From contig NZ_JADOUF010000001.1 in assembly GCF_015751905.1 (NCBI RefSeq), forward strand, positions 2,542,001 through 2,606,000: DNA of 64,000 nucleotides, given 5' to 3'. Position numbers and translations under genes: made by a program. The stretch's first letter is position 1. Each line of letters begins with the position of its first letter. The DNA comes from Longispora fulva (GTDB lineage: Bacteria; Actinomycetota; Actinomycetes; Mycobacteriales; Micromonosporaceae). The notes under the pieces were generated by a model. It had not been told where the DNA came from. It made no database searches and was given only the letters and a program-made list of their open reading frames with translations. Shown in pieces: positions 32,936-58,063 of this stretch.

Positions 32936-33222
32936 TACCAAACGGGTTTTGGCAGAGCTGACGCACGCCCCCGGCGCTGCCATGCTCTGCCACGCCTCTG
33001 CCACGGAGGCGGCGGCAACGCTGTCCTGGCGCGACGATAGGTGATTTCAGAACTTTGTCCCTATCGCGGTCCTGCGGTAGCCGGCTGAGCGCGACGCCGG
33101 GGCCCTTTCCCGCCCGGCCCAGGGTCGAGAAGGAGGGCGGCCTGTCGTCACCCGATTGGCAGCCGAGCGCATTCACTCAGGGCAATGGCCTACTGATCGT
33201 GGTCGACCTCGGTGTGGCAGAG
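32936..33222 (+). repeat. Imperfect ~300-bp direct repeat, copy 1
   Basis: It aligns with 34436-34748 in the same orientation. Shared landmarks, in order, are AAACGG(G/A)TTTTGGCAGAGC, CTCTGCCACGCCTCTGCCA, GGCAACG(C/T)TGTCC, GTCGAG(A/G)A(A/G)GG and TGATCGTGGTCG followed by GTGTGGCAGAGATGTG. The first 30 bp are nearly identical. Divergence is greatest in the middle. Confidence 0.75.
32949..33003. promoter_or_regulatory. Phased TGGCAGAG cluster A
   Basis: A forward TTGGCAGAG lies at 32949-32957. Two inverted copies, CTCTGCCA, lie at 32985-32992 and 32996-33003, exactly 11 bp apart. The cluster sits about 60-110 bp upstream of the methyltransferase operon start. It is probably a protein-binding array on one face of the helix. 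Confidence 0.65.
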
Positions 33223-33338
33223 ATGTGTGAGAGCGCGTGATCATGGCACCAGAGCGGCGTTGTTGGCAGCGGCGGCTGCGGCACTTGGCAACTGTCGGAC
33301 TCCATTGATCATGGTTGAGCGCCGCAGAGTATCGGTGC

Positions 33339-34394
33339 TTACGCCTCGATCCGGAGCCACACATCACCGGTTCGCAACCACAAGAAACCTTCACGTCCCT
33401 GGCCGCACCGCATGACAACGCGGCCGGGTACCGCGACCGTGTGTCGTTCCGTGACGATCCAGGAATCGTCGATCAACTCGGCGCGGAACAGTTCTGTGGA
33501 TGGCATGTTGTGGTGTCGTCGGGTCAGGACCGCACGGTTGCCGCGTATTGCCAGACCGTCCGGCGACGGTACGGGGCTGCGCCAGCTGGTCACTTCACCC
33601 GTCAGCGGCGTAACCCGCGTCAGGAAAGTGTCGTCCTTGGACGCGCTGGAGTACCACGCCAACCACACCTGATTGTTCTCGGTCGCGCCGGCGTGACCAG
33701 CTAGCGGCCATGCAGGCAACCTGCCATTCGGGGTCCAGAGGACCTGTCCATGTTCGTTCCAGCCCGCAAGTCCCGCCGCTGATTGCGGATGGCCTCCGTA
33801 GATGCCCTCGTCTCCGTAGGCGATCCAGATCGCTCCGCCATGGTCGGTCAGTAAGACGTCGATGTCGTCGCCGATGCAGAAGGCGGCCTGTCGCTCGCCC
33901 TCTGGGGAGAGGATCGAGGCGTTCGGTGTCCACGTGCCCGTTGGACCTCGCCGGGCGCGACTTTCTGCGATCAAGAGCCGAGTGTCCGGCAGGAGCGCGA
34001 TGTAGCTGGTGTGCATCGGGAGTTCCCGGATGATCCGGCGCTCCACCGATTCGTCAGGGTGGCGAATGACAAGTACGCCCCCGAACGGGGCCGTTGGGAC
34101 CGAGCCGATCCAGCCTTTGATATAGGGCGACTGCGTGAGGTAGCGACGATCGACGAGCAAGACTGCAAGGGCTCCCGACGAGCTGACGGTCCACCATAAT
34201 GGGCATCGTCCCGCAGCAAGATCCGCCGTCGGCGGCTGCCATACCTTCTGTACTGCGACGGCCGCCGTCACCCGCGTCCTCCTCACTCCACCGAGAAACC
34301 CCCAGCAGCCCGAGGACGCCGCTGTGTATGACACCTGCGGAGCCAGTGTCTCAAACCACCTGTCGTGCCGTTGTCCGGTCGGGACGTGGCCCAT
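33339..34394 (-). CDS. Hypothetical propeller-like protein flanked by direct repeats
   Basis: This 351-residue soluble protein is rich in beta strands and tryptophan. Motifs such as GAIWIAYGDEGIYGG and AGWNEHGQVLWTPNG recur in uncharacterised actinomycete proteins. I assign no function. The start ATG 34394 is 8-12 nt after AAGGGTC. GC content is lower than in the neighbours. The gene lies exactly between the two ~300-bp direct repeats, so it has the geometry of an exchangeable cassette. Confidence 0.7.
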   Translation of the reverse strand: MGHVPTGQRHDRWFETLAPQVSYTAASSGCWGFLGGVRRTRVTAAVAVQKVWQPPTADLAAGRCPLWWTVSSSGALAVLLVDRRYLTQSPYIKGWIGSVPTAPFGGVLVIRHPDESVERRIIRELPMHTSYIALLPDTRLLIAESRARRGPTGTWTPNASILSPEGERQAAFCIGDDIDVLLTDHGGAIWIAYGDEGIYGGHPQSAAGLAGWNEHGQVLWTPNGRLPAWPLAGHAGATENNQVWLAWYSSASKDDTFLTRVTPLTGEVTSWRSPVPSPDGLAIRGNRAVLTRRHHNMPSTELFRAELIDDSWIVTERHTVAVPGRVVMRCGQGREGFLWLRTGDVWLRIEA

Positions 34395-34450
34395 TCGCCA
34401 TGACCCTTGAAGTCCGACAGCAACACTGCGCTTCTACCGGCAAACGGATT

Positions 34451-34515
34451 TTGGCAGAGCTGACGCACGCCCCCGGCGCCGCCAGCTCTGCCACGCCTCT
34501 GCCACACGTCTGCCA
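34451..34515. promoter_or_regulatory. Phased TGGCAGAG cluster C
   Basis: A forward TTGGCAGAG lies at 34451-34459. Three inverted copies begin at 34486, 34497 and 34508 (the last as GTCTGCCA), each exactly 11 bp from the next. The cluster is placed 60-120 bp upstream of the gene that starts at 34394. Confidence 0.65.
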
Positions 34516-34729
34516 GGGCGTCAGTGGCAACGTTGTCCGGGCGTGGCGATAGGGGATTTCGGAGGTTTGCCCCTGATCGCGGGCCCGCGGCGACCCGCTG
34601 AGTGCGACGCTGTGGCCCTTTCCTAGCCGACCGAGGGGTCGAGGAAGGCGGGGCGCTCGCCACCACCCCGGAGGCCACGGAGCACGTTTATACAGGTCAA
34701 AGGCTTGATGATCGTGGTCGGCCCCGGTG

Positions 34730-34748
34730 TGGCAGAGATGTGGCAGAG
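34730..34748. promoter_or_regulatory. Phased TGGCAGAG cluster D
   Basis: Two direct TGGCAGAG copies lie at 34730-34737 and 34741-34748, 11 bp apart, with a further copy at 34808-34815. The pair is about 140 bp upstream of the sigma-like gene at 34885. The corresponding site in repeat copy 1 (33215-33233) has one intact and one degenerate octamer. Confidence 0.6.
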
Positions 34749-34787
34749 CTCGGCGCAGGGCGGCGGTCAGCCGTGCGATCAGCCGGC

Positions 34788-34805
34788 GACCTGCACTGTT
34801 AGAGC
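34788..34805 (+). repeat. 18-bp motif shared, inverted, with 58108-58125
   Basis: GACCTGCACTGTTAGAGC occurs here and as its exact reverse complement at 58108-58125. Both copies lie within 75 bp of a TGGCAGAG cluster. It could be a promoter element or the core of a recombination or transfer site. Confidence 0.6.
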
Positions 34806-34884
34806 ACTGGCAGAGCCGTGTGCGGCAATGGGCTCCCACGGGCATCCCGGCCTTGGGACGCGCCCACATTCACAGGAGTCCGCC

Positions 34885-35769
34885 ATGCTCACCGAACCGA
34901 CCACCACTGTCCCCCACGCCTCAGCCTTCGGCGCCATCGATACGGCCTGGAGGCTGCTGACCCGCGAGCCGCAAGCCGCGCTGTCGTTGGACTGCGACGA
35001 CCTCACCCTCCGACTGCGTCTGCCCGCCGGCTCGTTGCCGGCCGGGACCCGGTCCATGCAGTACCTGCGGGACTGGATGCTCGACAATCCCGCCGCGGCC
35101 CTGGCCCGCGACGTCATCTGGCGCGAGACCGCGAGCCGGGCCCACTCCAACGAGCCGGGCTGGGTGATCGCCGCCCTGGGGTTGGCCATGCCGGCGCTGG
35201 TGCGCTGCGCCGGGATCCTGTCGGCCGGATACCGTGGCGACGCGGCCGACATCGACGGGGAACTGGTCGCCGGGTTCCTGACCGCACTACGCGGAGACGA
35301 TCTCGACCTGTCGCGCCCGGTGGTGTACGCGAGGCTGTGCTGGGCCGGCTGGCGTGCCGCCAGGGACCTGCGCCTGGCCGATGAGGCCGAGGTTCCGCTG
35401 CCGGATTTCGACTCCGTGGCCGACTCACGCCCTCCCGAGGTTCCCTGGCGGCACGTGGACCTGCTCGTACAGCGGGCCTGCGACCTGGGACTCCTCTCGG
35501 CACAGGACATCCGGTCATGGATCGACATACGCCTCGGCGGCAAGACGCTGGCCCTGATCGCCCAGAGCCAGGGTCTTGAACCCAACGCGTTGCGGATGCG
35601 CCTGGCCCGCGCCGATCGGCGCATCGCCAGGGCGCTGGCCGACGGGATCCTCACCGGCTACGCCTCCCACCAGGCGGCCGCCCACCTGGCCACGGCCGCG
35701 GCCAGCAGCACGGACGCGGTCGACCATGGCGAAACAGTGGGCGAGGGGATCGTCGCACTCGCGGCCTGA
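34885..35769 (+). CDS. Sigma-like helix-turn-helix regulator
   Basis: This 294-residue soluble helical protein has a C-terminal region-4-like HTH at about 211-260: LLSAQDIRSWIDIRLGGKTL, IAQSQGLEPNALRMRLARAD and RRIARALADGIL. A recognisable sigma region 2 is not seen, so it may be an adapter-type regulator rather than a complete sigma factor. The start ATG 34885 follows ACAGGAGTCCGCC, a strong ribosome-binding site. Its upstream region carries cluster D and the 18-bp motif, so it may read or control that array. Confidence 0.6.
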   Translation: MLTEPTTTVPHASAFGAIDTAWRLLTREPQAALSLDCDDLTLRLRLPAGSLPAGTRSMQYLRDWMLDNPAAALARDVIWRETASRAHSNEPGWVIAALGLAMPALVRCAGILSAGYRGDAADIDGELVAGFLTALRGDDLDLSRPVVYARLCWAGWRAARDLRLADEAEVPLPDFDSVADSRPPEVPWRHVDLLVQRACDLGLLSAQDIRSWIDIRLGGKTLALIAQSQGLEPNALRMRLARADRRIARALADGILTGYASHQAAAHLATAAASSTDAVDHGETVGEGIVALAA

Positions 35770-35794
35770 GAAAGCGGCTGGACCACAACGTTCA

Positions 35795-35920: not shown

Positions 35921-35940
35921 TTGGTCCCCCGAGGCTGCCC

Positions 35941-36477: not shown

Positions 36478-36558
36478 CTCTGCCGGATCTCTGCCATGCG
36501 GGTTGGCAGAGGCGCGACAGAGCTGTGGCAGAGGTCGGCGCGTGCGTCAGCTCTGCCA
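36478..36558. promoter_or_regulatory. Phased TGGCAGAG cluster E upstream of conjugation genes
   Basis: This is the richest cluster. Two inverted octamers begin at 36478 and 36489 and three direct octamers begin at 36504, 36515 (CGACAGAG) and 36526, all at 11-bp steps within their groups. An inverted CTCTGCCA lies at 36551-36558. The run GCGTCAGCTCTGCCAAAACC is the reverse complement of the same landmark in clusters A and C, so each copy faces its own downstream gene. Confidence 0.7.
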
Positions 36559-36777
36559 AAACCCGTTTGGTAGGTGAGGGGCAATCGGACGGGCCGTCAG
36601 GCCGCCGAGGCCCCTCCCGCCGCAGGGGGCGCACCGTGACGACGCCGGGTCCCCGGGTGTAGCGCACGCGATGCGCTGACACCACATCGCACACCACCTT
36701 CTGATGGGAGGACCGGCTCTCGCCCGGTCCCGGTGCTGCACGTTCGCGCCCTGCGGCGGTCCTTACCCACTCATCAG

Positions 36778-36806: not shown

Positions 36807-37169
36807 ATGTCACCTGCATTGCGTACCCGTCTGCGCCGCGCCACCTCGTGGGCGGCCGTCCTTTCCACCGCCCTGGCGGTGCTGGCCGTCCCGGCGGCCG
36901 CCCTGGCCGACCCCGGCGGCCCGGCCGTCCTGGCAGCCACCGACCTGCCCGGGGTCATCTCCAACATCCAGGCCTGGCTGTTGGGGATCCTCAGCGCGAT
37001 CGTCACCCTCTACCTGATCTACGGCGGCGTCTTGTGGGCGACCGCCGGCGGTGACCCGTCGCAGGTCGAACGCGCCAAGGCGGCGTTCAAAAGCGCCCTG
37101 GTCGGTTTCGCTCTGGCGATCCTCGCCCCGGTGTTCCTGCAGATCGTCAAAGGGTTCGTCGGAAGCTGA
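36807..37169 (+). CDS. VirB2-like conjugative pilin / small type IV secretion membrane protein
   Basis: This 120-residue protein has a signal-peptide-like N-terminus (basic RTRLRRATSW, hydrophobic core, cleavage near ALA at about 35) and two membrane helices (about 55-77 and 95-115) around a short loop with GGDPSQVERAK. The size and layout match the VirB2/TrbC-like small subunits that open actinobacterial type IV secretion operons. The start ATG 36807 follows GGGAGGACCTGTC. Its TGA overlaps the ATG of the next gene (TGATG). Confidence 0.75.
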   Translation: MSPALRTRLRRATSWAAVLSTALAVLAVPAAALADPGGPAVLAATDLPGVISNIQAWLLGILSAIVTLYLIYGGVLWATAGGDPSQVERAKAAFKSALVGFALAILAPVFLQIVKGFVGS

Positions 37170-38991: not shown

Positions 38992-38999
38992 CCGGATCG

Positions 39000-42905: not shown

Positions 42906-42956
42906 TCTTGGTACGTGGGGCCGTGGGTTCGACCGCGATGGAGATGGGTGGCGGGG

Positions 42957-44354
42957 ATGGTTGAGACGTCTGAGATGGGCTTGTTGGATTTCGTCGCGCT
43001 CGCTGCGGACAAGCTCGCGGTTCCCGGGGTGGCGGTCGGTGTGTGGGCCGGCGGTCAGGAGACGTTCGCCTGTCACGGCGTGACCAGCATCGCCAATCCG
43101 TTGCCGGTCGACCCGGACACGATGTTCGTCCTCGGCTCGGTCGCCAAGTCCTACACCGCGACGGCGTTGGTGTGTCTGGCCGAGCAGGGACGCGTTGATC
43201 TGGATGCGCCGGTGCGCCGTTATGTCCCGGAGTTGGCGTTCCCGGACGGGATGGCGGCTGTCGAGATCACTGTGGCGCAGTTGCTCAACCACACCGCCGG
43301 GCTGGACTGGCGGCTGGGCGTCGACACCGGCGAGGGCGACGACGCGCTGGCGGCCTTCGTGGCGCAGATGGCTGAACTCGACCTGATCGCGGCGCCCGGC
43401 GCGCGTGCCTCCTACAGCCAGGTCGGGTTCAACCTGGCGGGGCGGATCGTCGAGAAGGTGACCGGGCTGACCTTCGAGCGAGCCGTCGCGGAGCTCCTGC
43501 TTGCGCCGCTCGGCCTCGCGCACACCGGCTTTTTCCTCAACGACGCCATCACCAAGCGGTTCGCGGTGGGCCACAACGCCGACCCGGAGGGCACGCTGAC
43601 CGTTGTCCGCCAGTGGAAGGACACTCGAGCCAACAACCCCGGCGGAGGTGTCGTTTCCTCTGCGGCCGACCTGCTCGCCTGGGCACGGTTCCACCTCGGC
43701 GACGGCTCCGGTGTCCTGCCCGACGCGGCACTGCGCCGGATGCGGGAGCCGACGGTCGAGCTGAAAGGCAGTACCCTCGGCGACGCGGTCGGGATCTGCT
43801 GGTTCATCCGGGACGTCGTCGCCGTCGACGACTCCGCCGCGACGGTCCGCACCGTCGGACACGGTGGCTCGGGCAATGGCCAGTTCGCCGAGCTGCTCCT
43901 GGTGCCGGAGCGGGACTTCGCCGTCGTGGTGATGTCGAACGCGGGCCCGGAGCATGGCATCGCCCTGAACCAGGCGGTAGTGAAGTGGGCGCTCGAGTAC
44001 TATCTCGGCGTCGTCGAGCGCGTTCCGGAGCCGTTGGCGTTCGACGCGAAGCGGGCCGGGGAGGTCGTCGGCCGATACGACAACGACCTGATGACGATCG
44101 CCGTCGTGCTGGCCGCCGCCGGAGACGGCATGACGATCGAGTGCCGGATCAAGCCGGAGATCCGTACCGCCTCCGAGAGCGAACTGCCCCCGGACCTCCC
44201 GCCGGCTTCCTTCGGTCTCCTGCCCGGCGACGGCGACGGGTACATCGTCACCAGCGGCGGGCTCAACGGGCAGCGCGGTTTCTTCACGCGTGACGACAGC
44301 GGCTCGATCGTCGGCGCGGACCTGGCGGGACGCTTCTTCGGCCGGGTCGCTTAG
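42957..44354 (+). CDS. Beta-lactamase-family (class C-like) serine hydrolase
   Basis: This 465-residue protein belongs to the penicillin-binding/class C beta-lactamase-like family. The nucleophile motif is SVAK in FVLGSVAKSYTATALV, the second motif is Y-S-Q in RASYSQVGFNLAG, and HGGSGNG replaces KTG. There is no signal peptide, so it acts in the cytoplasm and is more likely an esterase or peptidase than a resistance enzyme. The start ATG 42957 follows GGAGATGGGTGGCGGGG. It is bracketed by two same-direction IS ends and interrupts the conjugation region. Confidence 0.82.
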   Translation: MVETSEMGLLDFVALAADKLAVPGVAVGVWAGGQETFACHGVTSIANPLPVDPDTMFVLGSVAKSYTATALVCLAEQGRVDLDAPVRRYVPELAFPDGMAAVEITVAQLLNHTAGLDWRLGVDTGEGDDALAAFVAQMAELDLIAAPGARASYSQVGFNLAGRIVEKVTGLTFERAVAELLLAPLGLAHTGFFLNDAITKRFAVGHNADPEGTLTVVRQWKDTRANNPGGGVVSSAADLLAWARFHLGDGSGVLPDAALRRMREPTVELKGSTLGDAVGICWFIRDVVAVDDSAATVRTVGHGGSGNGQFAELLLVPERDFAVVVMSNAGPEHGIALNQAVVKWALEYYLGVVERVPEPLAFDAKRAGEVVGRYDNDLMTIAVVLAAAGDGMTIECRIKPEIRTASESELPPDLPPASFGLLPGDGDGYIVTSGGLNGQRGFFTRDDSGSIVGADLAGRFFGRVA

Positions 44355-44384
44355 GGAGTGTTTTGAAGGTTGATCAAGGTCTGG
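44355..44384 (+). repeat. IS end, matches 42871-42900
   Basis: This is the outer terminus of the IS5-type relic, with the shared core TTGATCAAGGTCTGG. Together with the copy at 42.87 kb it frames the serine hydrolase gene. Confidence 0.65.
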
Positions 44385-44790
44385 GTAGCCATTCGTTGAT
44401 CACCGCGATCAGGACCGTGGCCTCATAGCGGACAGCCAACTTGTCGTACCGGGTGGCCACGGACCTGCTTCTTTCAGCCTGTTGATCCCGCACTCGACCG
44501 CGTGTCTTACGCGGTAAGCAGCCTTGTCGAACGTCGGAGGCCGTCCGCCCTTCGGGCCCTTGTTCTTGCGGTTGAGGGCCTGGTCGGCCTTGTCGGGGAT
44601 GGTGGCCCTGACGCCGCGGCGGCGCAGGTAGTCGCGGTTGGCCTTCGATGCGTACGCCTTGTCGGCGAGGACCCGGTCCGGGGTGGTCCTGGGCCGGCCA
44701 CGCCGGCGGGGCACCCGGATCGCGGCCAGGACCGGCACGAACTGCGGACTGTCGCCCCGTCACCTTCTTTGGGCGCCACCACCGGCCACC
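44374..44790 (-). pseudogene. IS5-family transposase, C-terminal part only
   Basis: The sequence encodes RPRTTPDRVLADKAYASKAN, YLRRRGVRATIPDKADQALN, VECGINRLK and, in a shifted frame, VATRYDKLAVRYEATVLIAV. This is the IS427/IS5-group C-terminus, including the D in LADKAY and the E in VECGINRLK. The N-terminus is missing and the frame breaks near 44470, so it is inactive. Confidence 0.75.
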
Positions 44791-44818
44791 CAGGGGGATG
44801 GTCCGTAGTGCACGGCGC

Positions 44819-45259
44819 TCAGCCCCGGAGATCGTCTGTGGCCTCCTGGTAGGCGTCGGCGGCCCGGGTGAAGTAGTCGAAGAGGGTCGCGAGTTGCTCG
44901 GGTGGGTAGGTCCGCAGAAGTTCGCCGAGTTTGCGCCGGGCCGGGGCCATCGCCTCGTCCAGGCCGGCGGGTTTGCCGACCAGCTCGACGCTCACCTTGC
45001 GACGGTCATCGACGTGCGGCACGCGGCGCACGTAGCCGGCCTCTTCGAGCCGGTCGATCAGCCGGGTGGTCGGCCCGGTGGTAAGACCCGTGCGGGCGCC
45101 CAGTTCGCCGGGGGTCAGTGGCCCGGAGAGTTCCAGGGTGTTCAGCGCGTACAGGTCTGTGGGGCCCAGGTCGCAGGCCCGCGCGCTGGCCTGGCCGTGC
45201 TGCATGACCGCGCTCAGGTAGCGCCTGTACACCGCGCTGGCGTTCTCGGGTGTTGACAT
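44819..45259 (-). CDS. MarR-family transcriptional regulator
   Basis: This 146-residue winged-helix repressor-type protein has the recognition region LTPGELGARTGLTTGPTTRL and the wing GYVRRVPHVDDRRKVSVEL, which is diagnostic for MarR. Helices at both ends would dimerise. The start is ATG 45259. It is divergent from the NTF2-like gene at 45349 with a palindromic operator between them, so it probably represses both genes until a ligand binds. Confidence 0.88.
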   Translation of the reverse strand: MSTPENASAVYRRYLSAVMQHGQASARACDLGPTDLYALNTLELSGPLTPGELGARTGLTTGPTTRLIDRLEEAGYVRRVPHVDDRRKVSVELVGKPAGLDEAMAPARRKLGELLRTYPPEQLATLFDYFTRAADAYQEATDDLRG

Positions 45260-45313
45260 CGTCCAGCCCTTCTCATAATATCTTCCTCAACGAAGAGACT
45301 TCTTCAAAGCATT

Positions 45314-45331
45314 AACTTCTTAATTGAAGTT
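45314..45331. promoter_or_regulatory. Candidate MarR operator
   Basis: AACTTC-N6-GAAGTT (AACTTCTTAATTGAAGTT) lies 18 bp before the NTF2-like gene start, in an AT-rich island. Further GAAG/CTTC half-sites lie at 45290-45307. This suits binding of a MarR dimer. Confidence 0.6.
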
Positions 45332-45348
45332 ACCATGAAGGGAACGTC

Positions 45349-45798
45349 ATGAACATCCAGACCGACACCGCAACCATCCACGCCCTCCTCGACCAGCTGC
45401 TCGACGCCTGGAAGCGCGCCGACGGCACCGCCTACGGCGCACTGTTCACCGACGACGCCAGCTACGTCACCATCCTCGGCACCCACTACCGTGGCGCCCG
45501 CGAGATCGGCGCCGCACACCAGGTGCTGTTCGACACCTGGCTCAAGGGCACCCAGCTGTCCTGCGAGGTGCTCGACCTGCGGTTCCTCGGCGCCGACGCC
45601 GCGACCGTCGTGACCCGGGGCGACACCTACAAGGGCACGCCCGGTAAGCCGGGCAAAATCCAGACCTACGCGTTGGTACGGGGAGCCGACGGCGCATGGA
45701 AGTTCGCGGCCTTCCACAACACACAGCGCAAGGCGCTGATGGAAGCGGTGTCCTTCAAGTTCCAGCCCGCGACACGGCCCGCCGCCCAGCTGATCTAG
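45349..45798 (+). CDS. NTF2-like (SgcJ/EcaC, SnoaL-type) protein
   Basis: This 149-residue protein has the cone-shaped NTF2-like pattern: a first helix (LLDQLLDAWKRADGTAYGAL), FTDDASYVTILGTHYRGARE, and late strands (VTRGDTYKGTPGKPGKIQTY and WKFAAFHNTQRK). SgcJ/EcaC-family members occur in natural-product and stress loci, mostly without known catalysis. It is controlled by the divergent MarR gene. The start ATG 45349 is preceded by AAGGGAACGTC. Confidence 0.82.
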   Translation: MNIQTDTATIHALLDQLLDAWKRADGTAYGALFTDDASYVTILGTHYRGAREIGAAHQVLFDTWLKGTQLSCEVLDLRFLGADAATVVTRGDTYKGTPGKPGKIQTYALVRGADGAWKFAAFHNTQRKALMEAVSFKFQPATRPAAQLI

Positions 45799-45824
45799 TC
45801 GCAGCGCAGTTCAGTTGGCCGATG

Positions 45825-46150
45825 TCCGGTGACAGCAATGCTGATCATGCCGCAGCACATGCGGCGTGAGCCTCTCCGCCCACTCGGGAAGCCACCGGTC
45901 CACCTCGGCCGTCAGCCAGTCGCACAGCACCTGGTCCCGGTCCGCCGGCACAGGTCGGTCCGCTCGTCGAACCGTCGCTCCGAGGGAAGCAGAGGAACGT
46001 CGGTGCGTGTGACATCCTCGCCGAACTGGTGGCGCACATCTACCATCCACCAGTCGAGCAACGCCCCGGTCGAGTTGATCGCCGGCACCAGCATCGACTT
46101 CGACCCCCGGCCCCTGCCGCCCTTGCCGAACCGCACCTGCGGAATGCCGT
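45825..46150 (-). pseudogene. Tyrosine recombinase (XerD-like) C-terminal relic
   Basis: Across frames the sequence reads RFGKGGRGRGSKSMLVPAIN, then LLDWWMVDVRHQFGEDVTRT, PLLPSERRFDE, DWLTAEVDRWLPEWAERLTP and HVLRH. This is the catalytic C-terminus of a phage-integrase-type recombinase, including the HxxR box. The final catalytic tyrosine and the N-terminus are absent, and several frameshifts are present. Confidence 0.65.
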
Positions 46151-46276
46151 ACTCGCCCCGATCTAGGGCGTGTTGATTAGGGCAGTGGTCAATGGGTTCT
46201 GGTCCACCAAGCGTGATCGAACTTGCTCGAGTTGTCCGTTGTTCGACTTGGTCAATGGCGTCGGTAGGGTTCGGGC

Positions 46277-46696
46277 ATGGGTGTCGAAGGCGCGGAGACG
46301 TGGAACAAGTCCGCCGTTGTCGCGATCGGGCTGGAGGTCTTGCGAGAGCCGGGCGTCGGGCTCGGCGTCGTGGAAGCTATCGGAATGCTGATCGCGGTGG
46401 ACGCCCGGCTAAACCTCTGGGTCCTGGAGACAGCCAAGGGGCCGGGCGCAATCAATGACGTGTCTTTCGCGGCTGATGAAGCGACAGCTTGCCAGGCGTT
46501 GATCAAGGCGGCCTGGGCGCGATTCCTCGAGCATGATGTCGCTGGTCACCTCGAACGATACAAGGCAACGCCGGCAGTGGATCGGGCTCGGACCGGAGTC
46601 CGCGATGCAATGGACAGGCTCCTTGACGCGGCGAACGAGGAGTTAGCTGCTGACCTGCGCCTGATTCATGATCGTCTTGCCCGTTCCATGGGCTGA
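46277..46696 (+). CDS. Hypothetical passenger gene in the ISL3 element
   Basis: This 139-residue soluble helical protein (VVAIGLEVLREPGVGLGVVE, AVDRARTGVRDAMDRLLDAA) is unrecognised. It lies inside the inverted repeats and converges on the transposase gene with 7 bp between stops. This makes it cargo of the IS rather than a chromosomal gene. The start is ATG 46277. Confidence 0.6.
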   Translation: MGVEGAETWNKSAVVAIGLEVLREPGVGLGVVEAIGMLIAVDARLNLWVLETAKGPGAINDVSFAADEATACQALIKAAWARFLEHDVAGHLERYKATPAVDRARTGVRDAMDRLLDAANEELAADLRLIHDRLARSMG

Positions 46697-46703
46697 GATG
46701 GCG

Positions 46704-48260
46704 TCAGGCGAGGAGGACTCGCTTGCGGAGCAGGTCGAATCCTGCCCTTCCGTACATCTGCCTCTTGAGCATTTTGATGCGGTTCACGTTGCCTTCGACG
46801 GGGCCTGAGTTCCAGGGTTGGGTGAGGCCGGCGGTGACGGCGTCGAGGTCGAGGGTGAGGCCTTTGGCGAAGGCGGTCATGGTGGCCAGTCCTGAGGTGC
46901 TGGCTGTGGTGATCCAGCTGGTCAGGTGCTTGCTGCCGGTGCGGCCGGTGAGCATGGCGGCGAAGGAGCGGACCAGGTCGAAGGTGGCGTCGAGTTCGGG
47001 GCAGCGGGCCAGGATCGTCTTGAGGCGTAGGGTGTCGCGTTCGGGCAGGTTGTCGGGGTGCCGGCAGATCCAGCCGGCTACCCGCCGCACTGATGGTGGC
47101 GCCGGTGGCGGGGCCGGCTGGTCGGGGGCGGTGAGAGTGCGCAGAAAATCGCGGACGGTGGAGTAGCTTCCCCCGAAGCCTTGGGCAGCGACCTGCTGGT
47201 AGAGGTCACAGATGGCGCCTCGCCGGGCGGTCCAGTGCTCTCGGAGGAATTTCTTGAACGGGTCGAGGCTGCTGGGCAGCTGTCGGCGGCGGCCGACGAC
47301 CAGCTGCTGCCAGGTCGCCGCCCGGGCGTAGCGCTGAACGGTGTGCCGCCCCCAGCCCAGGTACCGGGCGATCTCGCGGATCCCCATCCCTCGAGCCAGC
47401 AGCCCATGGACCAGGGCATGGTGTTCGCGGCGCCGCTCAGCCATCGGACCGGTCGGGTCGACCGGCTCGACACGGTCCGACGCGGTCGGGCCGTCCGGTG
47501 GTGCGGCGACGGGGTCGGCCAGACATGCCTTGTGGCCGGCGACGCAGCGTTCGACGGCGACGGCCAGGTTCTGCCAGAGATGAAACCTGTCGGCGACCTG
47601 CAACGCTCCGGGGGCACCCGTCCGGGCACCGTCGGCGTAGGCGCCGGACCGGTCCCGGCAGATCACCTCCGGCGCGGGATGCCCGGCAAGCCACTCCGCA
47701 AGAGGGGTGGCATCGCGGCCGGGCAGCAAGTCGATCACCTTGCGGGTCTGGCAGTCGATGAGAACCGTGCCGTAGACGTGACCGCGTTTGAGCGCGAAGT
47801 CATCCACCCCGAGAACCTTCACCGGCCCGACCGGCGGGTCCGGTAACGCTTTAACCATCCGGATCAGACTGTTGCGGCTGGTGCGCAGCCCGAGTGCTGC
47901 GGCCAGCCGGGCGCCGGCCCGACCGGCCAGGGCCAGCCCGATCGCCGTGAGCGTCCGGCGCAGCAGCTCGCTGATCCGACACCGCCTTCGAGTCAGGCCC
48001 GCAACCTGCTCGACGAACGTCTTCGCCGCGCAGGCGAGGTTGTCGCAGAAGAAACGCCTGACCAGCAGCCACAACTCGGCTGGCCGGTCGCCAACCGCTA
48101 CATCGGCCAGCCGCCGCCGATACCGCGAGTGCACCCTGCCGGACACGCCACCGCAAGCCGCGCAGTCAGCAGTTTCGGCCCGGACCACCGCGTGAAGACG
48201 AACACCGCCGTCAACCCGCTCGATCCACTGCACCGCCACACCGTCCAGGTGCGGCAACAA
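46704..48260 (-). CDS. ISL3-family transposase
   Basis: This 518-residue, apparently intact DDE transposase has an N-terminal zinc-ribbon-like motif (CAACGG..HSRYRR..C) and an HTH (REIARYLGWGRHTVQRYARA). Catalytic acids fall in LGVDDFALKRGHVYGT, ICRDRSGAYADGA and GPVEGNVNRIKMLKRQMYGR, the ISL3 hallmark. The start is ATG 48260. Because it is full length, the element could still move. Confidence 0.93.
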   Translation of the reverse strand: MLPHLDGVAVQWIERVDGGVRLHAVVRAETADCAACGGVSGRVHSRYRRRLADVAVGDRPAELWLLVRRFFCDNLACAAKTFVEQVAGLTRRRCRISELLRRTLTAIGLALAGRAGARLAAALGLRTSRNSLIRMVKALPDPPVGPVKVLGVDDFALKRGHVYGTVLIDCQTRKVIDLLPGRDATPLAEWLAGHPAPEVICRDRSGAYADGARTGAPGALQVADRFHLWQNLAVAVERCVAGHKACLADPVAAPPDGPTASDRVEPVDPTGPMAERRREHHALVHGLLARGMGIREIARYLGWGRHTVQRYARAATWQQLVVGRRRQLPSSLDPFKKFLREHWTARRGAICDLYQQVAAQGFGGSYSTVRDFLRTLTAPDQPAPPPAPPSVRRVAGWICRHPDNLPERDTLRLKTILARCPELDATFDLVRSFAAMLTGRTGSKHLTSWITTASTSGLATMTAFAKGLTLDLDAVTAGLTQPWNSGPVEGNVNRIKMLKRQMYGRAGFDLLRKRVLLA

Positions 48261-48345
48261 TTCACGAAGAACCTCACACCCAAGTACAACGACCCATCAG
48301 CCAGCATCGATCACGCTTCGTGGGCCAGAACCGGTCAATGCCCCC

Positions 48346-48795
48346 GGCATGACGGGTTTGAGTGGCCCCGGGGCGTGGGTTATTGGTGGGTAGCGGCATG
48401 GGTCGTGACGGATCTATTCGGCCCCACCTTTGAGTTGGGCCAGTCGATCGTTCTGACGAGGCTATTTGGCCCCACTTGGCGCAGGTTTGCCATCGGTTGG
48501 GACCTGCCATGCCGGACCTGTGATCTTGACTCACTCCGGGTGCCGGGAACCTGGCGATCATTCTAGGCGTCTAGAACATAGACGACTTCGCATTGGAGAT
48601 GCTCATGCTCGAGCTACTGCTCAATTTTCTTGTGGGGCTGTTCACGTCGGACCAGGGCGCGGGCGGCAGCGGTGGCGCCCTGGAAGCTGAGGATTATGAA
48701 CGTTTGACCCGCTGAGCTGGGCAGGTGATGGATGGCCCGTGTTGGAAGCCGTACGCTGAAGGCTCCGGCGGAGCCTTCAGCGTCGTTGGGGTGAG
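48346..48795. other. Intergenic region between IS elements
   Basis: No gene is supported. Two short similar stretches, TATTCGGCCCCACCTTTG and TATTTGGCCCCACTTGGC, lie at about 48416 and 48463. They are probably IS debris. Confidence 0.4.
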
Positions 48796-49720
48796 TCAGG
48801 CAGCGGCTGCGAGTTGGGCGCGGGTGTGGGCGAGGCGGTAGGACTCGGTGCCGGTCTGGATGATGTTGCCTCCGAAGGTGAGCCCGTCGACGATCGCGGC
48901 GCAGAGGCGGAGGTCGGTGAACGTCTTCGTCCAGCCCGAGAACGACTCGTTGCTCGCGATCGCGACGCTCGCGTTCTCCTCCCGCTCTGTGGGCACCAAA
49001 CACGTCCGCCGGCAGCGGCGCGAGAGCCGACTGCTCGACGGCGAAGTCCTGGCCAACCGCGCGGACCCGGGTCTGGATGCGCCGGGCGTCATCTGACCGG
49101 TCGGCTGCGGCGACCACGGCGTTGAGGTCGTCGAGGGTGTCGACGACCGGAACCGGGGACAGGTGCGTGCGCCGGAACCGGCCGACGTCGCCTTCGACTC
49201 CGCCTTTCTCGTGGGCTCCTTCGATGCTGGGCCGGCAGTAGAAGGCGCCGAAGCCCATGTGCGAGCGAAACGCCCCCCAGTGATCGGGACTCGGTGCGGT
49301 TGCGGCCCAGCAGTACGCGTGAGACGGCGGACTTCAGGTTGTCGTAGCCGATCTTGTCGGTGGGGACGCCGCCGATGGTGTCGAACGCGTGCAGGTGTCC
49401 CTCGATGAACGCCTCCTGCCCTTGGGAGGCGAAGATCTTGTGCACGGCCTTGCCGGAGAACGACAGGCGGAACGCGAACAGGAAGCACTTCGTCAACTCG
49501 CCCGCGAGTTCGACCCACACGTCTCCGAAGCCGACCTCGGCCTCTGCGCCCGGCACGTGGTTCTGCAGGATGAACGCGGTCTCCGGGGCCCGGCCCGCGT
49601 CGGCGGCGATCTGAGGACGGCGTTTGCGGACGTAGTCGCGCACCGTCGAGTACGACAACCCGTCCGCGGCATGCTCGTCGAGGAGGCGGGCGTGGATGCG
49701 GGTCGCAGTGTGACGCTGTC
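48796..49720 (-). pseudogene. IS21-family IstA/IstB remnant
   Basis: The 5' part encodes an IstA integrase fragment (YSTVRDYVRKRRPQIAADAG, HVPGAEAEVGFGDVWVEL, FDTIGGVPTDKIGYDNLKSA), continued in another frame (GFGAFYCRPSIEGAHEKGGV). It then joins, after a deletion, to the last part of IstB (SVAIASNESFSGWTKTFTD, IVDGLTFGGNIIQTGTESYR). The internal deletion and frameshifts make it inactive. Confidence 0.75.
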
Positions 49721-49726
49721 ACCGGG

Positions 49727-50581
49727 TCACGCCAACAACCACTGGTCGGCTTCGCCGAGGACCCGCATGCCGGCCGCTCGGTACACGCCCGGCGCTCCGG
49801 TCTCGTTGGCGCTGTCCACATCGACGCCGACCGTCCGGTGGCCCCGGCGGGCGAGTTCGGCGAACGCGGTCAGCAGTAGCGCCCGGCCCAGGCCACGGCC
49901 CCGGTACGGTTCGCGGGTACCGAACCAGCCGATCCACGCCCGCCCGGGCGCGCCGCGCGCGATGAGCGCGGCGGCGGGGCGGCCGTCGACCTCGGCGAGC
50001 CACCAGAGCGTCGGGTCGTGGCCGTCGATACCCCGCTGGTCGCGCCAGAAATCGGCGAAGTCGCGCGGTCGGTGCTGCCAGTGGCCGGCGACGGCGTCCT
50101 CGATCACCGCGTGCACGGTCGCAGGTTCGCCGGCGGCGAGGATGCGTACCCCGGCGGCCGCGTCGGCGGGCGCCGGCAGCTCGGTGGTCAGGTCGGCGGT
50201 GAGGCGGGTGTAGCGACGTACCGGTTTCCAGCCGCGTCCCCGCAGTGCCGGCACGGTCGTGGCGCCGGGCAGCTGGAACAGGGTGACCTTCGCCCCGCCG
50301 GCCCACCCGGCGATCCGGTCCAGCAGCGGGTCGGCGGGCTCGCCGGGTGCGGTGGCCAGGTGGGCGCGCAGGTGCCCGACGTGCGCTGCGGCGTGCAGGG
50401 CGGCGAAACCGACGATGGCGCCGTCGCGGTCGGCGACGGCGCTGCGCAGGTCGGGCGCGTCGAGGATGGCCCGGAGTTCCGGCGCGGTGGTCCCGGCACG
50501 GCCGGCCGCGGCCAGTTCGGCGGCGCGGAACAGCGCGGTCAGGGCGGGTTCGTCGGCGGCGGTCGCGGCGCGGAAAGGCAT
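49727..50581 (-). CDS. Tandem GNAT acetyltransferase
   Basis: This 284-residue protein has two GNAT-like halves. The first is degenerate (IVGFAALHAAAHVGHLRAHL). The second carries the acetyl-CoA motif IGWFGTREPYRGRGLGRALL at about 225-244, with VDSANETGAPGVYRAAGM downstream. The layout resembles mycothiol-synthase-like double GNAT proteins, but identity is not shown. The start ATG 50581 (MPFRAATAADEPAL) is preferred over a longer frame that lacks a ribosome-binding site. Confidence 0.8.
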   Translation of the reverse strand: MPFRAATAADEPALTALFRAAELAAAGRAGTTAPELRAILDAPDLRSAVADRDGAIVGFAALHAAAHVGHLRAHLATAPGEPADPLLDRIAGWAGGAKVTLFQLPGATTVPALRGRGWKPVRRYTRLTADLTTELPAPADAAAGVRILAAGEPATVHAVIEDAVAGHWQHRPRDFADFWRDQRGIDGHDPTLWWLAEVDGRPAAALIARGAPGRAWIGWFGTREPYRGRGLGRALLLTAFAELARRGHRTVGVDVDSANETGAPGVYRAAGMRVLGEADQWLLA

Positions 50582-50898
50582 GGCGGACACCCTATGCGGG
50601 TCGCCGCGCGGCCGGTATCCGAGGAGGCGTGTCCGCCTGGACTGATCCACCAGCTCCTTCCCGAAACGGCCAACTCTTCCGCCGTGCGCGGGCCCACAGG
50701 AGCGCAGCGACCGCACCACCGCCAGCCCCATCTTCCACCCCGGATCGCCCAGGACGACAGACCATCAATCGCGCCACATCCGCCGATCATCCAGAACCAG
50801 CCATGACACCCAGTTGTGGCCGCAGCGCCGGACCCGACTGAACGTCAGGGACTTCCGGTAACCAATCCCGCTGACCTCATCTACTCCGAGGACGACCT
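50582..50898. other. Intergenic region upstream of the coupling ATPase
   Basis: No gene or recognisable IS sequence is present. It should hold divergent promoters for the GNAT gene and the coupling ATPase. No TGGCAGAG cluster is seen here. Confidence 0.4.
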
Positions 50899-53646: not shown

Positions 53647-54507
53647 ATGTCTACTCGTCAAAACCCTTACAACCGGTATTCGATCTTCGACAACACCCGG
53701 CACATCACCCCCCGCGACCAGCACCTTCTGGACCTGCTCGCAGAACACCACGTGCTGTCCACCCGCCAGATCGCGGCACTGTTCTACCCCAGCCTCCGCC
53801 GCGCCCAGGACCGCCTCGTCGTCCTGCACCGCGCCGAAGTGCTCTCCCGACACACGTGGGGCACGGCCACCGGCGGTGCCACCGACTACCTTTACTCGCT
53901 TGGACCCCTCGGCGCACGGCTGCGCCCCAACGCGTCCTACGACCTGGATCGGCCCCGGCGGGTCTCGCCCCGCAACCACATGGAGCGCATGAGCCGACTG
54001 GTGTCCAGCCCCAGCCTCAACCACACGGTCGGGGTGAACCAGTTCTTCGTCGACCTCTCGGCGCGCGCCCGCACCGACGCCAGGTGCGCGCTGGTGCGGT
54101 GGTGGTCAGAAAGGCGCGCCACAGCTGTGTATGACCGGTCGGGCATTCACCCCGACGGCCACGGCATCTGGCGCTGCGGCGAAAAGACCGTCGGGTTCTT
54201 CCTGGAGCACGACAACGGCACAGAGAACCACGCCCGGGTCGTGTCGAAGTTCGCCGCCTACCGCGAACTCGCCGCGCACGGCCCCACCTATCCGGTGCTC
54301 CTGTGGGTGCCCAGCCGGGGCCGGCGCGACAACCTGCTGGCCAGCCTCACCGGTGTCGGAGTTCCGGCCGCCGTCGCCATACAGGGCGCCGATCCTGCCG
54401 CACGCGTGTGGTACCTGGCCGGATTCGGCGGCCCCTATCACCTGCACGACCTTCCCAGCGACCACGGTCCCGACAGCGCCATCAACCCTGGACGCTTTCA
54501 CCCCTGA
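53647..54507 (+). CDS. Replication-relaxation family protein
   Basis: This 286-residue protein has the N-terminal winged helix of the Replic_Relax family (HITPRDQHLLDLLAEHHVLS, STRQIAALFYPSLRRAQDRL) and a C-terminal nuclease-like fold (GIHPDGHGIWRCGEKTVGFF with LEHDNGTE). Such proteins accompany transfer genes in actinobacteria and are suspected relaxosome or replication accessories. The start ATG 53647 has GGAG 9 nt upstream. A nearby hairpin (CCCTCC-GATA-GGAGGG) would hide another Shine-Dalgarno-like run. It is a paralogue of 55584-56501. Confidence 0.82.
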   Translation: MSTRQNPYNRYSIFDNTRHITPRDQHLLDLLAEHHVLSTRQIAALFYPSLRRAQDRLVVLHRAEVLSRHTWGTATGGATDYLYSLGPLGARLRPNASYDLDRPRRVSPRNHMERMSRLVSSPSLNHTVGVNQFFVDLSARARTDARCALVRWWSERRATAVYDRSGIHPDGHGIWRCGEKTVGFFLEHDNGTENHARVVSKFAAYRELAAHGPTYPVLLWVPSRGRRDNLLASLTGVGVPAAVAIQGADPAARVWYLAGFGGPYHLHDLPSDHGPDSAINPGRFHP

Positions 54508-54667
54508 CCGCTCCCGGGCCACGGGCCCGGCTCTGACACAGCTCGGCCAGGCACCTCGTCCTGGTGATGGAAGCTGTCGATAAAACACTCCCAGCCCGTC
54601 AGATTCGCAGCTCAGGCCAGGAATCCTCTGATCAGGCCGGTCCATTGCTCGGGCTGTTCGAACATCC

Positions 54668-55390: not shown

Positions 55391-55583
55391 CAGGGCACCC
55401 AAGCACCTTCACCCGACCAAGCGCAAGGTCCACTCGCCCCCTGGCAGAACCATCGACTGACATCGCCTGAGAGGTGGGGCCATACCCCCATCATGACCCG
55501 CCCCGGAACCCAACGGCACCACTGCCCTTCCACCGCAGCGGCCCTTCGACGAGGAGGGCCGCATTCTCCTTTGGAGCCCCACG

Positions 55584-56501
55584 ATGACCACGACTTTCAC
55601 CCCTCCGACGACCACGGCTCATCCTCGGGCCCCGCACCACGTGACCCCGCGCGATCTGGCGGTCCTGGAACTTCTCTCCGAACACGAGGTGTTGTCCACC
55701 CGGCACATCGCCGCCGTCTTCTTCCCTTCGGTGCGTGCGGCACAAAACCGGCTCGCGATCCTGCACCACATGGACGTGGTGTCCCGTCACGCGTGGGGGC
55801 ATCCCCGCGGGGGCCAGGCCGAGTACCTCTACTCCCTCGGGCCACTGAGGGCCCTGGTGCGCCCCTACGCCGCCAACCGGGCCGACCTGGCCGTGGTGGC
55901 GGCCGCGCACCACGACGAGCGGATGTGGCGCCTTGTCGCCAACCCGGGGCTGCGGTCCACGCTGGCCGCCAACGGGCTGTTTACCGCCCTCATCGCCCAC
56001 AGCCGCAACCATCCCGCGACGCGGCTGGCCCGCTGGTGGTCAGGGCCACGCACTGCGGCCGCGTTCGCCCGGTACCGGATTCGTCCCGACGGGCACGGGG
56101 TGTGGCAGGCCCACGGCCGCACCGTCGGCTTCTTCCTCGAAGGCGACACCGGCGACGACCAGTCACTGCTCGCCAGACTCGCCGGCTACCGGCACCTGCC
56201 CGCGGCAGGTCCGCGCTACCCCGTCCTGCTGTGGACCGCGGACCCCGACCGCCGTGACCAGGTCCGTACCCTGCTCGCCCGCGAGCACGGGCCCACGGTC
56301 GCCGTCGCCGCGGCCGCCGATGAGCCGGCCGGGCGGATCTGGTACCGGCCGGGCCGCCGTTTCCTACTCGGACAGCGCCGCCCGTGCCAGTTGCACGAAC
56401 TGCCGTCAGACCACGGCCCGGACACGGCCGCCAACCAGGCCCGGTATCCCCCGTCCGCCTGGTGGCCGACAGGGCGGCTCCCACAGCGCGGGTCACCGTA
56501 A
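55584..56501 (+). CDS. Replication-relaxation family protein, paralogue
   Basis: This 305-residue protein has the same plan as its neighbour: HVTPRDLAVLELLSEHEVLS, STRHIAAVFFPSVRAAQNRL, then RIRPDGHGVWQAHGRTVGFF and LPSDHGPDTAANQARY. The second core motif reads LEGDTGDD where the paralogue has LEHDNGTE, so the two may differ in activity. The start is ATG 55584. Two diverged copies around one membrane gene suggest local duplication. Confidence 0.82.
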   Translation: MTTTFTPPTTTAHPRAPHHVTPRDLAVLELLSEHEVLSTRHIAAVFFPSVRAAQNRLAILHHMDVVSRHAWGHPRGGQAEYLYSLGPLRALVRPYAANRADLAVVAAAHHDERMWRLVANPGLRSTLAANGLFTALIAHSRNHPATRLARWWSGPRTAAAFARYRIRPDGHGVWQAHGRTVGFFLEGDTGDDQSLLARLAGYRHLPAAGPRYPVLLWTADPDRRDQVRTLLAREHGPTVAVAAAADEPAGRIWYRPGRRFLLGQRRPCQLHELPSDHGPDTAANQARYPPSAWWPTGRLPQRGSP

Positions 56502-56758
56502 CCCAGCTGGCAACTGTCACCGAGGTACTTGCCAGGGCTGGGTCTTTGCGACGCCAGCCCGGGACAGCCGTTAGGACCCCTTTCAATGTTGATCATCGAC
56601 GAGTCTGGCCCGGGAATTGCCAACCCCGCAATCGGTTGATGGGGCGCGGCGGCACTCGAGGGACTACAAGGTGGCGACATTCGCGGTCTGACAGGGGCCC
56701 CCGACGTGCTCTAGTCTCGGCCATGCCGGCCGTGCGGCCGAGGAAACGAAGGGTGACC

Positions 56759-57106
56759 ATGGCCGACGACACACAACGCCGTAAACCGCGCCGGCGGCGG
56801 ATCATATTGTGGGTCGCGCTGCCCGCGGTGGTGGTGCTCGGCGCTGTCGCGTCCTGGGGCATCTGGCATAAGTACCAGAGTTCCAGCTCATTCCATGTCG
56901 GCACCTGCTTTGAGGTGATCGAAGAAACCTACATTAAGCCAGCCGGCGGCCTGCGCGAGATCGGCGGCCGGGCGAGGGTTGTCAGCTGCGATGCCCCGCA
57001 CGGCGCCAAGATCACCCGGACCGCAGGGCACGCGTCGGACTGCGCTGCGGAGGGCGCGTGGTTGAACAGCCGCCAGCAGACCTACTGCGTTACCTTGTCG
57101 AGTTAG
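56759..57106 (+). CDS. Small single-pass membrane protein
   Basis: This 115-residue protein has a basic N-terminus (RRKPRRRRI), one membrane helix (ILWVALPAVVVLGAVASWGI) and a short outer domain with four cysteines (HVGTCFEVIEE, ARVVSCDAPHGAKITR, HASDCAAEGAW, YCVTLSS). The C-D-x-PHG..K pattern is like LppU-type actinobacterial envelope proteins. The start ATG 56759 follows GAAGGGTGACC. Its partner is unknown. Confidence 0.68.
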   Translation: MADDTQRRKPRRRRIILWVALPAVVVLGAVASWGIWHKYQSSSSFHVGTCFEVIEETYIKPAGGLREIGGRARVVSCDAPHGAKITRTAGHASDCAAEGAWLNSRQQTYCVTLSS

Positions 57107-57358
57107 TACGGCAGCGGCATGTAGTGGCTATGCACTGGTAGTGGGCCCGTGGCGACGTTTGTAGTGGCTGCGTGTGGCGATGGCTTGATGGCGTCGTCGC
57201 CAGCGTGAGCATGCTTGCGCCAGGTCTGCGGGAACGGTCGTATGTATGGCGGTATTTGATCTGCCAGGCGGTCCCGTGGGCACCCGTCCCGAATCCTGAA
57301 CGTCGCTCCGCCATGTGATCATCGGCAGGTCACACCACCGCCTACGCAGGAGGAGAGC

Positions 57359-57910
57359 ATGGGGGCATCGAGCTGGACTTCGAGGGTGCCGTATCAGCCG
57401 GACGTCGAAGCCGCGCTAGAGCTGGCCCGCCGGGACGCCTACGACCGGGGCTACTACTACCGAGCGACGCCGAACACGCAGGCCCGGACGATGAGCGAGG
57501 AGGAGTACGTCGCCTGGGAGATGGCTGAGCTGCGCCTTAGCCTGGCTGAGGCGTTCGGCGATGACGACATGGAATGCGACGACACGATGGCCCGGGACAG
57601 CTGGCGGGCCGCTCAGGTGGAGGTGACCGGCCCGGACAGCCTGCTGGCCGCGCAGATCTACTCGGGCGCCCACTCGGTCATCGACATGACCGGTGTCGCG
57701 CCATCTCCCGAGCCGGAAATGGTCGCGCCCGTGCCAGAAGATGTCCTGGAAGAGGTGTTCGGCACGCGGCGGCCGACTGCCGACGCGATCGCCGGGGCCA
57801 TCGCCGCAGGGCGCCTGGAGGACTTCGGCCGCTGGTACGGCGCATACGCCGTGGCCTACGACGGGGAGCACCCGGAGTCGATCGTCTTCTTCGGGCACAG
57901 CGGCGACTGA
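57359..57910 (+). CDS. Hypothetical acidic protein
   Basis: This 183-residue soluble acidic protein starts MGASSWTSRVPYQPDVEAAL after a strong AGGAGGAGAGC ribosome-binding site. Related N-termini (MGASSW..RVPY) occur in uncharacterised actinomycete proteins. No catalytic motif is visible. It is followed directly by a short IS5 relic. Confidence 0.68.
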   Translation: MGASSWTSRVPYQPDVEAALELARRDAYDRGYYYRATPNTQARTMSEEEYVAWEMAELRLSLAEAFGDDDMECDDTMARDSWRAAQVEVTGPDSLLAAQIYSGAHSVIDMTGVAPSPEPEMVAPVPEDVLEEVFGTRRPTADAIAGAIAAGRLEDFGRWYGAYAVAYDGEHPESIVFFGHSGD

Positions 57911-57934
57911 CAAGAGGGCCGCCTCCTGCGCTGA

Positions 57935-57985
57935 TGACGGCGATGAGGACCGTGGCTTCCAAGCGGACGGCGAGTGAGTCACGGG
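57935..57985 (-). pseudogene. IS5-type transposase tail relic
   Basis: Minus-strand text DSLAVRLEATVLIAVI matches the last residues of the IS5-type transposase at 44.4 kb (DKLAVRYEATVLIAVI). Only about 50 bp remain. Confidence 0.5.
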
Positions 57986-58010
57986 CACTGCTCCCGTTGT
58001 GACGGCCGAC

Positions 58011-58063
58011 CTGCGCCACAGCTCTGCCAGACCCGGTCGCCGTTTGGCAGAGCTGTGGCAGAG
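58011..58063. promoter_or_regulatory. Phased TGGCAGAG cluster F
   Basis: Inverted sites begin at 58011 (CTGCGCCA, degenerate) and 58022 (CTCTGCCA), 11 bp apart. Direct TGGCAGAG sites begin at 58045 and 58056, again 11 bp apart. The cluster lies 400 bp upstream of the first gene of the 58-63 kb set. Confidence 0.65.

Follow-up and report, generated by a model that had tools for sequence, protein, structure and literature searches.

The stretch analysed here comprises 64,000 nucleotides of the Longispora fulva genome (assembly GCF_015751905.1, contig NZ_JADOUF010000001.1, positions 2,542,001 to 2,606,000 of the forward strand; hereafter the window), in a genome of 8,676,660 bases (8.68 Mb, G000). 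It holds a putative integrative and conjugative element (ICE) based on a type IV secretion system (T4SS), with genes for a VirB4-like protein (41055), a coupling protein (50899) and candidate relaxases, along which lie arrays of the octamer word TGGCAGAG. With moderate confidence, these arrays are interpreted as the upstream portion of modules that control transcription of a transfer regulon in a family of T4SS-type ICEs, with P3, a sigma-like protein encoded between two of the modules, as the predicted reader of the module core. The features concerned, in window positions, are the following.

31241 to 32161, minus strand: N6/N4 DNA methylase (PF01555), second gene of the methyltransferase operon
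32139 to 32891, minus strand: first gene of the methyltransferase operon, its ATG 40 bp past core A (start set by alignment)
32932 to 32971, minus strand: module A core, TGCGTC-N16-GTTTGG, with an inverted word in the spacer (32950-32957)
32975 to 33003, minus strand: module A direct repeats, TGGCAGAG at 32996-33003 and 32985-32992 and the degenerate TGGCAGCG at 32975-32982
33215 to 33233, plus strand: cluster B, auxiliary repeats without a core, TGGCAGAG and TGTGAGAG
34434 to 34473, minus strand: module C core, preceding the propeller-like gene (33339-34394)
34477 to 34515, minus strand: module C direct repeats (34508, 34497 and 34486; degenerate at 34477)
34730 to 34748, plus strand: cluster D, auxiliary direct pair
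34788 to 34815, plus strand: GACCTGCACTGTTAGAGC followed by TGGCAGAG, 69 bp upstream of the sigma-like gene
34885 to 35769, plus strand: sigma-like protein P3, 294 amino acids, its gene between divergent modules
36478 to 36533, both strands: module E repeats (plus strand 36504, 36515, degenerate, and 36526; minus strand 36489 and 36478, the latter degenerate)
36537 to 36576, plus strand: module E core, with an inverted word at 36551-36558
36807 to 37169, plus strand: T4SS pilin (PF18895), opening the transfer operon, 231 bp past module E
53647 to 54507, plus strand: Replic_Relax protein (PF13814), candidate relaxase
55584 to 56501, plus strand: second Replic_Relax (PF13814) protein
58011 to 58063, both strands: cluster F, arrays that face each other in the interval from the second relaxase gene to the 58448 gene
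58108 to 58125, minus strand: second exact copy of GACCTGCACTGTTAGAGC, reversed, beside cluster F

The repeated arrays noted in a preliminary description of this DNA are real. Counting both strands, TGGCAGAG occurs 18 times in the window (2.15 ± 1.49 expected; none of 100 shuffles reached 18), and pairs of words at an 11-bp step, with up to three mismatches, number 12 against 0.65 expected. The six clusters listed there are all present, although only four pairs are exact (32985, 34486, 34730 and 58045) and several other members are degenerate copies, including TGTGAGAG at 33226, CGACAGAG at 36515 and TGGCGCAG at 58011. One further site had been overlooked (34797-34815, TGTTAGAG and TGGCAGAG), and an isolated octamer placed at 18477 lies at 18466. 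The piece AAACGG(G/A)TTTTGGCAGAGC, said to be shared by clusters A, C and E, was found in all three, each copy facing its gene; a longer stretch of the shared sequence, searched with up to three mismatches, gave six matches among 354 genomes of the family, all of them in G000.

A whole-genome scan for octamer pairs, extended to 100 further relatives (101 genomes in all), found 24 places with up to two mismatches in the Longispora genome, compared with seven for a reversed control pattern. Its 11 exact pairs all lie at 171.9, 694.2-694.9, 2574.98-2600.06 (the window) and 4961.3-4961.4 kb, while the other 100 genomes had none and the reversed pattern gave no exact pair in any of the 101. Exact pairs are not chromosome-wide, as had been anticipated; nevertheless, three loci outside the window carry them too, so that they are common to four loci of one genome and not unique to the element in the window.

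Clusters A, C and E are directional modules with one common layout, which, read toward the gene, consists of direct words, GCGTGCGTCAG, the inverted word CTCTGCCA, and then AAACCCGTTTGG or close variants. Its core is the promoter-like T[TG]CGYC-N16-G(G)TTT, with one copy of the inverted word inside the spacer, and an identical layout was observed at the other three array loci of the genome (172, 694 and 4961 kb). A 40-bp core model (R1) matched core A at 32934-32970 (E 2.8e-8), core C (E 3.4e-6) and core E (E 1.9e-8), all three being among the sequences from which the model was built. A search with the exact core letters of the Longispora version gave nine matches in varied taxa, including one Microbacteriaceae metagenome-assembled genome, and these were taken as chance. 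The stretches from A to B and from C to D derive from a duplication and have since diverged (74% identity over the 204 bp between clusters), A and C being copies that arose from it as judged by this alignment; apart from its own duplicate, the intervening sequence had only weak, partial matches in the compared loci.

Conservation was evaluated around genes of the PF13814 family, which has four copies in the Longispora genome, in three of its four array loci, and was detected in 247 of the 354 family genomes (E ≤ 1e-10). The set of 88 loci comprised 80 regions around PF13814 genes from 79 genomes (with flanks for 19 regions), one same-genus locus found by P3 similarity and seven loci of the Longispora genome; since the 80 regions were hand-picked among the best-listed PF13814 matches, the sample is biased to well-conserved relaxases. 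When these 80 regions were scanned blindly for phased repeats of 8 letters, a 10-bp spacing was seen in 84 merged pairs, spread over 46 regions, against 25-55 pairs at other spacings that are not multiples of three (47 at 11 bp), and the 10-bp excess came largely from CTGTGAG words standing in the module layout. A module profile, seeded with 16 examples and then iterated, called 69 modules (E < 0.01) in 37 of the 88 loci and none on the reversed sequence of the same loci; 48 relaxase-centred regions had no match, and one module-bearing locus, A160, had no PF13814 gene.

Of the 69 modules, 58 stand in front of genes for pilin/T4SS, the methyltransferase operon, a relaxase or xis/integrase. PF13814 genes are downstream of 19, mostly at 278-686 bp in small elements and at shorter distances in L130, L135 and L138. 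The methyltransferase operon follows 17, at 39-42 bp where the ATG was called directly and at about the same distance in other family members if an internal MSEH start is taken; the product of 32139-32891 is 43% identical to that of the gene starting 42 bp past the module in L161, and the methylase family of 31241-32161 was present in 16 of 23 P3-bearing loci, the window counted. The T4SS pilin follows 14 modules, 138-286 bp from the called start, 13 of them in loci other than the window, and an HTH_17 gene and an integrase follow five and three, respectively (families assigned from examples). The remainder face one ORF family on the pilin side of ICE-like loci (five), other genes (five) or, at a locus edge, none (one). 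In five cases an opposite-strand ORF lies between the module and its downstream gene. Among loci with two modules, 27 of 28 had them divergent and none convergent. Modules were found in seven genera by genus label; they are shared between genera, and the operons that they face are mostly conserved ones; the clusters are kept upstream of homologous operons in related elements, a point on which the preliminary description had staked its proposal beforehand.

Spacing and covariation were counted on 50 of the 69 modules, those left after redundancy was removed at 85% identity, and the 50 cores aligned without gaps. The word, by contrast with the core, varies among modules, falling into TGTGAG, TGTCAG and TGGCAG classes, with mixed classes at some loci. 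Direct and inverted words change together, with 89 of the same class as their module's counterpart against 43 by permutation (p ≤ 1e-4, relatedness ignored), and the same trend was observed without the Longispora genome (73 against 47 expected; p ≤ 1e-4, relatedness again ignored). The step between neighbouring words also differs: it is 11 bp in 8 of 10 cases in the TGGCAG class (the Longispora modules), most often 10 bp in the TGTGAG class of the relatives (13 of 24) and 21 bp in 5 of 10 cases in the TGTCAG class. The phasing at "exactly 11 bp" described previously holds for the Longispora modules and is a local trait, because relatives often use steps of 10 or 21 bp; what the modules have in common is a step of roughly one or two helical turns.

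P3 family members were present in 25 of the 88 loci, and 23 of these carry modules, which flank the gene in 22 loci and lie next to it in L209 (a weak second module by the P3 gene was seen in L177, which overlaps L209). Modules were found in only 14 of the 63 loci without P3, which gives a Fisher p of 1.3e-9 for the association, the loci not being independent. In 50 loci without modules, not even a weak match to the module (E ≤ 0.5) was obtained. Among 16 loci taken by P3 similarity from 13 searched genomes, the eight with P3 of at least 46% identity all had modules, while the eight with P3 of 29-40% had none within flanks of about 1.5 kb; three of the eight module-positive loci (L174, L180 and L184) are outside the 88-locus set. 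A motif like that at 34788-34815 stands upstream of or at the called starts of P3 homologues in L130, L135, L138, L159, L171 and L209. No P3 homologue was found in plasmids at the limits used. Position and co-occurrence with modules therefore back the earlier suggestion of the sigma-like protein as a candidate regulator.

In a profile comparison with extracytoplasmic function (ECF) sigma factors of the same genome, the P3 family (37 sequences) reached 86% in hhalign (E 5e-6, 159 columns), in an alignment that spans sigma70 region 2 and then region 4, in order, whereas eight control families reached at most 0.4%. ECF-type factors use two-part promoters with a spacer of 16-17 bp, and at the putative target genes T[TG]CGYC and GTT/GAT are separated by 16 bp in 49 of the 50 modules and by 15 bp in one. 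P3 is likely, though not securely, a divergent ECF-like sigma factor; the assignment is not secure because Pfam matches were below threshold and the structure model was of no use.

Several observations weigh against this interpretation. With 25 P3 sequences hhalign gave only 35%; Sigma70_r2 was matched in 2 of 25 members (best E 0.0066); a PDB search with the P3 profile returned matches at chance level, none of them sigma factors; and the structure model had a pLDDT of 41. NCBIfam had no match for P3 of the window or its homologue in L138. The core letters differ from the usual ECF consensus and, to our knowledge, do not make a textbook ECF promoter. The profile used to find the cores itself favours constant spacing, and neither the covariation test nor the Fisher test takes relatedness into account, with one genus supplying 21 of the 32 module loci among the 80 relatives' regions. 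The inverted word is imperfect (TGTGTG or TGTGCG) in 14 of the 32 TGTGAG-class modules. Finally, L150 and L153 have P3 without the standard module. These divergent relatives have a word of their own and a core that is different yet similar by eye, GTTCGATCGG..CTGACAG..CCCGGATCTGGG, with 10-bp repeats of GACAGGTC in L153 (merged coordinates 14711-15529 and flanks), and this clade perhaps represents a second specificity of the same system.

In the mechanism proposed, P3 would read the core as a -35/-10 pair and switch on the pilin, methyltransferase, relaxase and xis/integrase operons together. Transcription would start just after GTTTG, which fits the approximately 40 bp to the start codon at module A. 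Since a sigma factor is expected on the core and not on the octamers, the octamers would need another binding protein; this second protein might occupy the words in front of the core as well as the one within its spacer, lining one side of the helix at steps of about one or two turns, and adjust output. Small module-bearing elements without P3 would respond to P3 from a co-resident ICE.

Fourteen module loci lacked a P3 gene in the stretch fetched, 11 in relatives and the three at 172, 694 and 4961 kb of the Longispora genome, where a whole-genome search found the P3 gene in the window only, plus a fragment at 4961 kb. All four array loci share the word TGGCAGAG, unseen in pairs in the other searched genomes, which fits control in trans by the element of the window and a common local ancestor alike. 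Outside this genome, trans use of P3 is weakly supported. When eight genomes with P3-less module loci were tested, only G190 (46%) and G311 (51%) encoded P3 of the module-bearing type; as further points against the proposal, G188 (40%), G387 (39%) and G347 (29%) encode only divergent P3, at loci without a module, and no P3 match was found in G342, G189 or G186. A more ambitious version, in which a mobile-element sigma factor would control a whole actinobacterial conjugation regulon and satellites without the sigma gene would carry the same modules (in the Longispora genome, the same word) and fire only with a helper, amounting to sigma-factor piracy, is put forward as a doubtful proposal, made less likely by the divergent type of the P3 homologues in G188 and G387.

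The alternative that survives best, possible though clearly less likely than a module read by P3, is that the words are operators of a winged-helix regulator of the OmpR/PhoB/SARP type, encoded by the host or the element, which would act alone or together with P3. The heptamer repeats of SARPs resemble the words. PhoP of Mycobacterium tuberculosis is reported to bind direct repeats of TCACAGC with a 4-bp spacer, that is, an 11-bp step (PMC4832192); words of 7-8 bp repeated one way at 11 bp are a likeness to the Longispora modules, and the relatives' word GCTGTGA is the complement of the PhoP-bound sequence. PhoP is said to require the 4-bp spacer strictly, whereas the step is 11 bp in most cases in the Longispora modules and most commonly 10 bp in the TGTGAG class; unlike PhoP-type operators, moreover, the modules show frequent 10- and 21-bp steps in relatives and an inverted copy in the promoter spacer. 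The window proteins scanned, which were part of its ORFs, included no Trans_reg_C match, and words that differ between elements are hard to explain by a conserved host regulator. As reader of the words, an OmpR/PhoB-type regulator is a good candidate.

It is improbable that the repeats are relaxosome sites, bound by the Replic_Relax (MOBC-like) relaxase, with the module as origin of transfer (oriT). The element has two PF13814-type genes, a family which we take to be linked to MOBC, and PF13814 proteins occur in all but one of the Longispora array loci. The MOBC relaxase TraX of pAD1 is reported to have a winged helix-turn-helix (HTH) and to bind five direct repeats 70-120 bp from nic (PMC12857230); candidate PF13814 relaxases and direct-repeat sites make the present elements alike, whereas the sites here are multi-copy, gene-facing and promoter-like. 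Most elements carry two or three gene-facing modules, which also precede xis/integrase, pilin and methyltransferase genes, which relaxase binding sites do not explain, although they would account for the company of PF13814; the 48 relaxase-centred regions without a module, and A160, also speak against this reading. The relaxase was rejected as reader of the variable word positions, given N-terminal segments that agree in 40 of 45 residues between L121 (TGTGAG word) and L146 (TGTCAG word). Cluster F is a different matter and is itself conserved: the 600 bp upstream of genes of the 58448 family average 4.4 words in 18 elements including the window, against 1.35 in random, mostly coding stretches of the same loci (with none in L098 and one in L110), and the cluster with its reversed GACCTGCACTGTTAGAGC copy (58011-58125) has no module core. 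Cluster F is a possible oriT.

Very little speaks for the other candidate of the preliminary description, the HTH protein at 29414 (P0001 family), as binder of the arrays. Homologues do lie near the arrays at 172.5 and 4964.3 kb, but neither the paralogue at 3099 kb (81-84% identity) nor that at 795 kb has a module in the surrounding sequence fetched (60 kb and 20 kb, respectively), and the 80 relatives' regions yielded no homologue; the protein was rejected as word reader. The family itself (29138-30349 in the window; also L021, L025, L037 and L039) has five long copies in the Longispora genome, one with two internal stops; besides the window copy, two are near arrays and two at array-free loci. 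P0001 matches were also obtained in 3 of 60 relatives, and neither P0001 nor the second relaxase had homologues in plasmids at the limits used. Least credible of all are iterons for replication or partition of the element, rejected in spite of the grouping of phased repeats in clusters and the 11-bp repeats used by ParR of plasmid R1, since directional, gene-facing cores of constant geometry precede different operons, and the window proteins scanned included, besides PF13814 (Pfam title replication-relaxation), no family for replication or partition. From the earlier alternative of iterons or operators of an element-encoded regulator, the second half is thus retained, as operator- or promoter-like control sites.

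Other features of the window bear on the state of the element. The VirB4-like and coupling-protein genes are separated (42915-50731) by genes for a PF00144 serine hydrolase, a MarR-type regulator, an ISL3 transposase, an IS21 helper piece and a GNAT protein, so that this part of the element seems to be broken up, and the element is possibly defective. No PF00589 integrase match was found inside the window, serine recombinases and att sites lying outside that search. The propeller-like gene sits between the two copies of the diverged control-region duplication. It did not cluster with other genes downstream of modules, and when the DNA of 32.9-36.7 kb was compared with plasmids, it accounted for the six best of 214 records (64-69%, Streptomyces plasmids), the 14 others among the best 20 being an IS21 piece near 35.8 kb; the arrays were unmatched among these 20. 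It looks like an inserted cargo gene. Elsewhere in the window, a sigma70 region 2 match was found at 25381-25581 on the minus strand, with an equal-score match at 2177250-2177450 of the genome, and a large NACHT/STAND-type NTPase gene, of a kind met in defence or signalling, lies at 9420-12134.

No description of the modules or of the P3 family was found among the open-licence papers listed for such elements, which is weak evidence of absence. If the interpretation of the arrays as P3-read modules is correct, one regulator gene and a 40-bp module would let the transfer operons of T4SS-type actinobacterial elements be predicted from sequence, together with satellites possibly dependent on them, and would make helper dependence easy to check. 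With a word that varies next to a core that hardly does, the modules are in addition a natural data set on changes of operator specificity.

Compared with known systems, the modules resemble the promoters of ECF sigma factors in the ordered alignment of P3 with regions 2 and 4 and in the constant 16-bp spacer, and differ in that P3 falls below Pfam thresholds and that repeats and an inverted word in the spacer are added. AcaCD is an FlhDC-like activator and not a sigma factor. The AcaCD regulon of IncA/C is nevertheless alike in that the activator of a conjugative element is reported to control an integrated satellite, SGI1, as well (PMC4605294); in the present case the sites combine a sigma-type core with phased repeats, and control in trans is predicted. 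Seventeen putative T4SS-type ICEs have been reported in Actinobacteria, likewise integrated conjugative elements with VirB4-like and coupling ATPases, in a survey reported to have searched for MOBF (TrwC) relaxases only (PMC3218068), whereas the elements considered here carry PF13814. The modules that precede the transfer operons are probably under the control of a divergent sigma factor, for which only part of the elements have a gene.

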